From Gammaproteobacteria bacterium (GTDB lineage Bacteria > Pseudomonadota > Gammaproteobacteria > Steroidobacterales > Steroidobacteraceae): DNA of 64,000 nt. A program made the translations under genes and the position numbers. The first letter of the stretch is position 1. The number at the start of each line of letters is the position of its first letter. The stretch covers positions 1 through 64,000 of the forward strand of contig JANYJY010000060.1 of assembly GCA_025358295.1 (NCBI GenBank), read 5' to 3'. Below the pieces are notes generated by a model. The model saw only the letters and a program-made list of their open reading frames with translations. It did no database searches and was not told the DNA's origin. Shown here one piece after another: positions 28,901-58,840 of the stretch.

Positions 28901-28992
28901 GGAGAGGTGGCCGAGTGGTCGAAGGCGCTCGCCTGGAAAGTGAGTAACATCCCAAAAGGTGTTCGAGGGTTCGAATCCCTCCCTCTCCGCCA
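28901..28992 (+). tRNA. tRNA-Ser (GGA anticodon)
   Basis: A 92-nt class II tRNA with encoded CCA. The acceptor arm GGAGAGG (28901-28907) pairs with CCTCTCC (28982-28988), followed by discriminator G and CCA. The anticodon stem CTCGC/GTGAG encloses loop CTGGAAA with GGA at 28935-28937. The T loop GGTTCGAATCC and a long variable arm identify it as serine tRNA reading UCC/UCU. Confidence 0.96.
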
Positions 28993-29035: not shown

Positions 29036-29149
29036 GGCGGCTCGCGTTTGCATCTTCGCGACGACTGGTCACGAACCCCGTCAGGCCCGGAAGGGAGCAG
29101 CGGTAGAGGCTTTAAGTCGGGCGCCGAAGTCCTGCTGGCGCGGGCCGCC
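29036..29149 (+). ncRNA. ffs: Signal recognition particle RNA (4.5S, small bacterial type)
   Basis: The invariant apical region GTCAGGCCCGGAAGGGAGCAG, given here in two parts (GTCAGGCCCGG at 29080-29090 and AAGGGAGCAG at 29091-29100), matches the Ffh-binding GGAA loop and symmetric loop. The ends pair as a long helix: GGCGGCTCGCG (29036-29046) with CGCGGGCCGCC (29139-29149). The ends are set from that pairing and could be off by a few bases. It lies between tRNA-Ser and dnaX, a common gammaproteobacterial location. A TTGACC at 28996 may be its -35. Confidence 0.92.
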
Positions 29150-46425: not shown

Positions 46426-46778
46426 TGGTGGAGCCGGGGGGAATCGAACCCCCGTCCATAAGTCCTACGCTACAAGATCTACGTACGTAGCCCAGTCTAT
46501 TGTTCTCGCCGCGCACTACCCAACGGGCAGGGAAAGCATGCAGCCAGCCCGGTAGTTTTTTCGTTGAGCACACCCCAGACACGTGTGCTCCACTAGCTGA
46601 TGAGCGCTACACCTAAACGTTCGCATCAGCACGAGCCGCTTAGGTTTCAACCGCGATTAGGCGGCTAGAGCGTAGTTGTCTTGATTGGCAACTATAAGTT
46701 TGCAAATGGTTTTACGAGGAACCTGCACCTCGGTACGCCCCTGCAGTTTCGCAACCCATGTCGAAACCGGTCGGCCCC
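46426..46778 (-). ncRNA. ssrA: Transfer-messenger RNA
   Basis: Standard one-piece tmRNA of 353 nt including CCA. The 5' end GGGGCCGACCGG (46778 downward) pairs with the acceptor strand CGGCTCC before A-CCA at 46429-46426. The T arm is GGGGG-TTCGATT-CCCCC. It rescues stalled ribosomes with SmpB, encoded just upstream on the same strand. The 3' CCA is encoded. The 5' end is set from the acceptor pairing. Confidence 0.96.
46657..46689 (-). other. tmRNA proteolysis-tag reading frame (ANQDNYALAA)
   Basis: Within ssrA, the resume codon GCC at 46689 begins the frame GCC AAT CAA GAC AAC TAC, then GCT CTA GCC GCC TAA. With the charged alanine the appended tag is A-ANQDNYALAA. The ALAA end recognised by ClpXP is kept. 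E. coli has ANDENYALAA, so two internal positions differ. Confidence 0.95.
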
Positions 46779-57518: not shown

Positions 57519-57547
57519 TGGACAGTGATCGCGTGCATCGTTAATAT
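57519..57547 (+). promoter_or_regulatory. Candidate carAB promoter
   Basis: TGGACA (57519-57524, 5 of 6) is followed after 17 bp by TAATAT (57542-57547, 4 of 6), giving a start near 57554 and a leader of about 108 nt. The octamer ATGGACAG occurs twice here (57506-57513 and 57518-57525), so a second -35 is possible but wrongly spaced. Confidence 0.5.
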
Positions 57548-57580
57548 TCGCGCCCGGAAACTGGCTGCGAATTAACCCAT

Positions 57581-57650
57581 AAAGCGGGAGGACGTTCTGA
57601 AGGAGCGCCTCCCGCTTTGCGCATCTGCGGAATGCTCCGTAGTGCAAAGC
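57581..57650 (+). promoter_or_regulatory. Structured carA leader with mutually exclusive helices
   Basis: Helix A: AAAGCGGGAGG (57581-57591) pairs perfectly with CCTCCCGCTTT (57608-57618). Helix B: CTGCGGA (57625-57631) pairs with TCCGTAG (57636-57642). Helix C: GCTTTGC (57614-57620) can pair instead with GCAAAGC (57644-57650), enclosing helix B. A and C share 57614-57618, so they cannot both form. GAGGA, the probable carA ribosome site, is at 57651-57655, directly after the C helix. No T-run follows helix A, so the more natural readings are control of translation or of a downstream RNA event. Function is not shown. Confidence 0.55.
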
Positions 57651-57661
57651 GAGGAACCGGA

Positions 57662-58840
57662 GTGTCGACACCTGCAGTGCTAGCTCTCGAAGATGGCACC
57701 GTGTTCCGTGGCGTCTCAGTAGGCGCAAAAGGCAACACGACTGGTGAAGTAGTTTTCAATACGGCGATGACGGGGTATCAGGAAATCCTGACCGATCCCT
57801 CTTATTGCCGGCAAATTGTCACTCTCACGTATCCCCACGTCGGCAATACCGGCACCACGCCGGAGGATCTGGAATCAAGTGCGGTCTATTCCGCAGGCTT
57901 GGTGATCCGCGATTTACCCTTGCTGCATTCCAACTGGCGCGCCACTGAGTCGCTGCAGGGCTTCCTACAGCGCTGCAAGGTGGTGGCGATTGCGGACATT
58001 GATACCCGCAAGCTCACCCGATTGCTGCGCGAGAAGGGCGCGCAGTCGGGATGCATTATGACCGGCGAGAAGATTGATGAGACCGCCGCGGTGCGCGCCG
58101 CCAAGAAATTCCCTGGCTTGAAGGGCATGGACCTCGCCAAGGTCGTCACCACCAAGAGAATCTACCAATGGAACGACGGGCTGATCTGGAAGCCGTCCAC
58201 CAAGCCGCCACGCCCGCAGAGCCGCCTGCACGTCGTTGCCTATGACTTCGGCATCAAGCGCAATATTCTGCGCATACTCGCCGAGCACGGGTGTCGCATG
58301 ACTGTGGTGCCCGCACAAACTCCTGCAGATCAAGTACTTGCGATGAATCCTGATGGTATCTTCTTAAGTAATGGTCCCGGGGATCCAGAGCCTTGCGATT
58401 ACGCCATCGAGGCGATTGCGCGCTTTCTGGAGACCGACATCCCGGTGTTCGGGATTTGCCTGGGTCATCAGCTATTGGGTTTGGCCAGCGGCGCCAAGAC
58501 CATGAAAATGAAATTCGGCCACCATGGGGCGAATCATCCGGTTTCGGAGCTCGACTCCGGTCGGGTACTGATCTCGAGCCAAAACCACGGCTTTGCCGTG
58601 GATGAAACGACGCTGCCTGCCACGCTGCGCGCCACTCACCGTTCCTTGTTCGACGGTTCCCTGCAAGGCGTGGCGCGCACGGACCGGCCGGCGTTCAGCT
58701 TTCAGGGTCACCCTGAGGCCAGTCCGGGACCGCATGATCTGCGGCTGCTGTTCGAACACTTTATGTACTTGATGGTGAAGCGCATGCAGGCCCATTCGCG
58801 CGGCCGTAATTCCGTCAAACAAAAATCCGCCGAGAGTTAA
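57662..58840 (+). CDS. carA: Carbamoyl-phosphate synthase small subunit (glutaminase)
   Basis: Supplies ammonia from glutamine to CarB for arginine and pyrimidine synthesis. It has 392 residues from GTG 57662 with GAGGA upstream, giving the normal [13 protein letters not shown] terminus. The catalytic cysteine is Cys266 in [11 protein letters not shown] (class I glutaminase), with GHPEASPGP in the C-terminal region. An upstream in-frame TTG (57617) and ATG (57632) would sit in the leader helices. carB begins immediately at the stop, with no gap. Confidence 0.96.

Follow-up and report, generated by a model that had tools for sequence, protein, structure and literature searches.

A conserved terminator-like hairpin in the carA leader of a Steroidobacteraceae genome and its relatives

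The carA leader of the window, i.e., the whole 64,000-nt stretch of a Steroidobacteraceae genome analysed here, carries a strong and conserved attenuator- or terminator-like hairpin, H2 (57580–57619, + strand), which lies behind a predicted promoter and ahead of the likely ribosome site. We consider it fairly likely that this leader holds a transcription attenuator of carAB; position, shape, and the experiments reported for Pseudomonas syringae favour transcription attenuation. Since terminator-like hairpins precede carA in many related families, we read H2 as a probable brake on transcription and not as part of the ribosome-site switch proposed in the initial annotation.

The carA leader and hairpin H2

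The open reading frames at the end of the window were recognised by eye as dnaK, dnaJ, dapB, carA, carB, and greA, in this order, CarA alone being identified by search; carAB supplies the synthesis of pyrimidines as well as that of arginine. carA (57662–58840, + strand) starts with a GTG, where homologue alignments begin in most of the leaders compared, and its likely ribosome site is GAGGA (57651–57655, +). The ATG at 57632, which shares the carA frame and falls within the loop of hairpin B described below, was rejected as a start codon because it is absent from the leaders of the window's genus (g1) compared by eye. The promoter of the initial annotation is in place, with a predicted −35 box TGGACA (57519–57524, +) and a predicted −10 box TAATAT (57542–57547, +) separated by a spacer of 17; counted from the inferred start near 57554 to the GTG at 57662, the leader has the length of about 108 nt given there. 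A degenerate −35/−10 pattern fits 23/23 leaders of genera g1 and g3, and most leaders of relatives run from promoter to H2, tail, and carA, with L024 and L027 as exceptions. The window also contains a tmRNA (46426–46778, −), a small SRP RNA (29045–29143, +), and a tRNA-Ser (28901–28992, +).

Helix A had been described as a perfect 11-bp helix (57581–57591 with 57608–57618), and all 11 standard pairs are indeed present when checked base by base; what had been overlooked is that A forms only the lower part of a longer hairpin (H2), whose inner stem brings the total to 18 pairs with one bulge. At −55.4 kcal/mol, the segment 57553–57665 is far more stable than its dinucleotide shuffles (−34.8, sd 3.4; z −6.1), none of the 200 folding as well; the strong hairpin upstream of carA is real. 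In the fold calculation, pair probability in helix A ranges from 0.83 to 1.0. When truncated transcripts are folded, in a calculation that is thermodynamic and not kinetic, the minimum-energy fold already holds most of A at 57616, before the 3' arm of the competing helix C exists.

H2 runs into a tail, UUUGCGCAUCUGCG (57616–57629, +), made of a short U-run followed by a conserved GYRYAUSUG. The U-tract of the window is weak (UUUGCGC), and a plain terminator scan of its leader found no terminator; the terminator score depends on where the stem is taken to end, passing at +14.0 for a cut at CCCGC and failing at −21.5 if the AAA/UUU pairs are included. Among hairpins picked by eye, the median U-run is 3 in the order (n = 20) versus 4 in the class (n = 55), with p = 0.033 uncorrected for phylogeny. 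Directly after the U-run, many families of the class, as well as the window at 57616–57629, tend to alternate purines and pyrimidines (GYRYRYSYG): in 75 by-eye hairpins, the first base is G in 42, and the following ones are a pyrimidine in 60, a purine in 50, a pyrimidine in 57, a purine in 52, and a pyrimidine in 59.

Helices C and B next to the ribosome site

All the pairings on which the proposed switch was built are present. Helix C (57614–57650, +; 57614–57620 with 57644–57650) forms 7/7 pairs when checked base by base, hairpin B (57625–57642, +; 57625–57631 with 57636–57642) forms seven pairs including one G-U, A and C have five bases in common (57614–57618), and the last base of C, 57650, adjoins GAGGA, which begins at 57651. 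The mutual exclusion of A and C, in contrast, holds for the lowest five pairs of A only: with C and B forced, the upper six pairs of A persist, as does the inner stem, so that the two helices are only partly exclusive. Pair probability in C is at most 0.022 in the fold calculation, and the fold with C and B forced is 7.0 kcal/mol less favourable. As C opens just those lowest five pairs, the ribosome-site switch is not supported; by energy calculation, its two states are not of comparable stability, and access to GAGGA is about the same in the forced C fold as in the A fold. A longer version of helix C (57608–57622 with 57642–57654, 13 pairs, 2-nt bulge) reaches into the ribosome site and would hide GAGG; it is 13.9 kcal/mol worse and could matter only with the 5' arm of A held by something.

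Most of genus g1 keeps C. In alignment A5 (22 g1/g3 leaders, excluding L055 and with L005 lacking the left arm), C pairs in 96.6% of cells and the halves of hairpin B, which is present in the predicted fold and not conserved, in 80.3% and 49.2%; for C and B jointly, covariation in A5 is not above shuffles, the score being reached by 59/500. One compensatory change, from U-A to C-G, is found in helix C of L015, the same pair being U-G in five cells, so that C may have some role in g1. L020, of the same genus, has lost the 3' arm of C and kept A and a ribosome site, and no such arm was seen by eye in leaders of other genera outside g3. We regard helix C as at most a local addition in the window's genus.

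Conservation and linkage to carA

With the leader as a DNA query, 115/200 family genomes and 19/25 genera gave matches at E ≤ 0.1, carA presence being checked for part of these matches; among the matches listed, most of those outside g1 and g3 span only about 57581–57629, i.e., H2 and its tail. In the window's own genome, model R1 returned one full copy, before carA, its two other rows being this hairpin read in antisense and a match at E 9.7. Of the 196 order genomes, 44 have an R1 match at E ≤ 0.01 and 152 have none; with E ≤ 1, 27 of 40 order leaders match and 13 do not (L024, L027, L095–L097, L099, L100, L104, L105, L107, L111, L112, and L128). A hairpin with a CCCG-U tail is nonetheless visible by eye in the R1-negative L099, L100, L104, L107, and L128, and the R1 match in L116, whose fetched DNA is without CarA, is probably false.

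Covariation among the carA leaders of relatives backs the pairing of A across genera and families; within g1, it backs neither A nor C with B. Indeed, as covariation of helix A within g1 is no higher than in shuffles, it is the comparison across genera and families that supports its pairing. In alignment A1 (22 family sequences), 86.4% of stem cells pair versus 83.2% when shuffled and at most 51.2% when slid; the helix core is nearly invariant, and one pair is A-U or G-U in 22/22 rows. Alignment A4 comprises L150 and 19 order sequences; compared with A3, the rows L101, L103, L117, L135, L164, L107, and L108 are omitted (the f7 and beta rows have one extra U), and L015 and L031 are new, L031 being shortened by a misplaced reference. 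There, 81.8% of stem cells pair versus 76.5% in shuffles (0/500 reach the value) and at most 59.6% when slid, and 24 cells are changed on both sides versus 10.0 in shuffles (again 0/500); 8 of the 16 pairs are changed on both sides, a number that 57/500 shuffles reach. One has to keep in mind that the aligned sequences were excised with the hairpin known and that the shuffles ignore relatedness.

The linkage to carA was assessed with a context-free degenerate pattern of H2 and its tail, scanned over 84,980 species genomes. This blind scan yielded 62 loci, 58 of which have a CarA start 15–172 nt downstream on the same strand (tblastn); the cis element that the initial annotation had placed in the carA leader is supported as carA-linked and lies behind a conserved promoter, and the reading of a cis-acting leader is to that extent upheld. 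Among the four remaining loci, L138 and L142 show a CarA start by eye, and L170 ends at a contig edge. In L164 (Ca. Propionivibrio aalborgensis), the carA behind the leader hairpin is without its first part in the contig. The matches include Steroidobacteraceae and Woeseiaceae, with relatives of H2 also in Accumulibacter (L135) and Ca. Propionivibrio (L164), which we take to be betaproteobacteria. These loci overlap the other set of genomes used, so the two sets are not independent.

For the class, we sampled 100 CarA-bearing genomes, one per family, out of 130 found (two of the window's family and the 28 lowest-scoring were excluded); CarA starts are alignment starts, accurate to a few codons, and L255 was too short for the hairpin scan and the terminator score, hence n = 99. 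A model-free scan found a hairpin with a U-run within 130 nt of carA in 71/99 leaders, versus 12.2 in shuffles and 28 on the antisense strand, and none in the other 28 leaders; the stem ends 20–59 nt before the carA alignment start in 67 of the 71, and CGGGA...UCCCG adjoins the U-run in many class leaders. The terminator score was passed by 64/99 leaders, 0/99 mononucleotide shuffles, and 11/99 antisense sequences. Model R2 matched 47/100 leaders on the sense strand at E ≤ 0.01 and 62/100 at E ≤ 1, and none of the 100 on the antisense strand only. We infer that the class hairpins share descent with H2. R2 has no match in the leaders of Amphritea, Acinetobacter, Aeromonas, or E. coli; for this reason, the plain U6 terminator before carA in Amphritea japonica is regarded as alike in kind, and homology is not claimed. 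E. coli K-12 and Aeromonas caviae show no terminator hairpin in the 150 nt scored. In Acinetobacter cumulans, two U-rich, nested hairpins are seemingly visible by eye (L294, 361–425), with the terminator score not passed. The carAB genes of Amphritea japonica stand on a record called a plasmid, and a partial 5S rRNA match, just below the gathering score, lies upstream of its carA leader (L293, 1–68).

Sensing, rival readings and known carA leaders

PyrR-dependent pyr attenuation is known from Bacillus. In the class, PyrR was found in 95 of the 149 genomes sampled and co-occurs with the hairpin (68/71 with it versus 18/28 without; Fisher p = 1.3e-4, uncorrected for phylogeny); yet it is found in 0/196 order genomes, the window's own included (NF003545, E ≤ 1e-10), and was therefore rejected as the sensor for the order. 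A leader peptide was likewise discarded, as no small ORF is common to different genera among the leaders examined. A start codon before H2 with at least five codons occurs in 5/23 g1/g3 leaders, the window's not among them, and in 18/40 other f1 leaders with a promoter call, where 12 of the 18, every one from genus g35, have a 13-codon GTG frame in common, over conserved leader letters. The distance from the inferred start to H2 is 25–35 nt in 23/23 g1/g3 leaders, and the roughly 30 nt available in the window would be too short for ordinary leader-peptide coupling. With neither PyrR nor a peptide common to genera, H2 is left without a known sensor; no antiterminator was seen by eye.

We propose that RNA polymerase would start at the TGGACA/TAATAT promoter and make about 30 nt before reaching H2, which, with its short U-run, may cause a fraction of the polymerases to pause or terminate before carA; the remaining ones would read through, with carA translated normally, and this read-through fraction would presumably fall when pyrimidines are plentiful. 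In this reading, H2 would terminate transcription in the window's organism, and pyrimidines would matter there.

Other readings of H2 have to be weighed against attenuation. H2 could be a constitutive structure without regulation, insulating carA from dapB read-through or protecting the mRNA, which its high stability, the weak U-tract of the window, and the nearly invariant helix core in A1 would fit; the P. syringae stem-loop at the same place nevertheless modulates expression (PMC4997734, accessible part), and the conserved carA promoter lies ahead of H2, which therefore also acts on the carA transcripts, so we hold this reading to be unlikely. Slightly less probable still is an aptamer riboswitch, in which a 5' hairpin (H1), H2, and the conserved tail would bind a metabolite from the pathway of either pyrimidines or arginine. 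H1 with a linker UUAGUCC precedes H2 in members of the family outside the window's genus, the pattern occurring in 59/200 family genomes, once each; it is upstream of carA in 30/30 loci examined, with H2 between in 29, and in those genera H1 possibly serves as a sensing or binding module. Two further points speak for an aptamer: the tandem doubling of a 21-nt unit with CGGGTTAGTCC (hairpin arm and linker) ahead of H2 in L149 (about 2605–2680), L183, L185, L077, and L081, and the inclusion of a Polynucleobacter carA motif among riboswitch candidates (PMC8632094, accessible part). Against it, the H1 pattern occurs in 0/23 g1 genomes, the window's own included, H1 differs between families, R1 gives one real place in the own genome, and Rfam has no match in the leaders searched: with Rfam 15, the window has no leader match at the gathering threshold, and loose thresholds applied to 30 loci gave chance matches and neighbouring 5S rRNA, none of them in the leader hairpin.

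An alternation of A and C gating the carA ribosome site is very improbable in our view: the C pairing kept in A5, its one compensatory change, and an extended form that would cover GAGG have to be set against the energy cost of both C forms, a 3' arm that is transcribed later than A, the loss in L020, and the restriction of that arm, by eye, to g1 and g3. As for the reading of the inverted repeat as an operator at the DNA level instead of an RNA structure, the arms are nearly invariant within the family, as would fit; the changes nonetheless preserve pairing, often by a one-sided G-U as in the A-U/G-U pair of A1, both sides change between families, and the window scores 76.6 bits in sense versus 22.6 in antisense (some antisense matches span the whole model too), which makes an operator the least credible of these readings.

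Attenuation can be carried further, to one ancient carA attenuator across Gammaproteobacteria sensu lato, which would show itself both as the Polynucleobacter candidate and as Pseudomonas P32; with neither PyrR nor a leader peptide in the order, the RNA, or the polymerase by pausing in a nucleotide-sensitive way at the conserved alternating GYRYRYSYG tail, would sense pyrimidines directly. We regard this extension as rather doubtful. If an attenuator is the common arrangement of the class, the textbook case of E. coli would be the exception, and the order of the window, which has neither PyrR nor a leader peptide common to its genera, would be a clean place to seek the missing sensor.

Like Bacillus pyr attenuation, the window places a terminator-like element ahead of a gene of pyrimidine synthesis; it differs in that PyrR has no match in the 196 order genomes. 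In E. coli, carAB has two promoters, at which transcription factors exert control (as cited in the accessible part of PMC8632094), and carAB has been placed in the gammaproteobacterial ArgR regulon (PMC5343134, accessible part). Pyrimidine control of carAB in Pseudomonas aeruginosa is thought to be attenuation, with a leader peptide reported, whereas here none is common to genera (Kwon 1994, as cited in the accessible part of PMC4997734). The accessible parts of PMC2965389, PMC10175445, and PMC5343134 yielded no carA leader data; the reports found, in their accessible parts, concern Pseudomonas (PMC4997734) and betaproteobacteria, mostly Polynucleobacter (PMC8632094), and a literature search largely confined to papers free of subscription returned no class-wide account of a carA attenuator.

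The closest known system is that of P. syringae DC3000, as described in the accessible part of PMC4997734. As in the window, one promoter lies between dapB and carA, a terminator-type stem-loop stands between the start and carA, and no start codon for a leader peptide was found; the leader is 118 nt long, versus about 108 nt inferred here. In P. syringae, a 3' end maps just behind the leader terminator, lux fusions without half or all of the stem-loop give higher expression (the P3/P4 fusions also being without downstream sequence), and uracil reduces expression of the full-length fusion; by qRT-PCR, P32 and carA are unchanged by arginine plus uracil, which tempers the attenuator reading. The P. 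syringae element has a mapped 3' end and reporter tests, while that of the window is a sequence-based prediction likened to it by description. Like H2, the Polynucleobacter carA (SRC-12-1) motif is an imperfect hairpin directly before carA and its ribosome site and behind a promoter; it has 30 examples, mostly from Polynucleobacter, with little covariation, and, compared by description, is possibly related to H2 (PMC8632094, accessible part). A carA attenuator in Pseudomonas and a carA hairpin motif in Polynucleobacter have thus been reported in the accessible literature; what is added here is how widely the hairpin occurs, that its pairing is kept while the letters change, that it is linked to carA, and that a sensor is missing.
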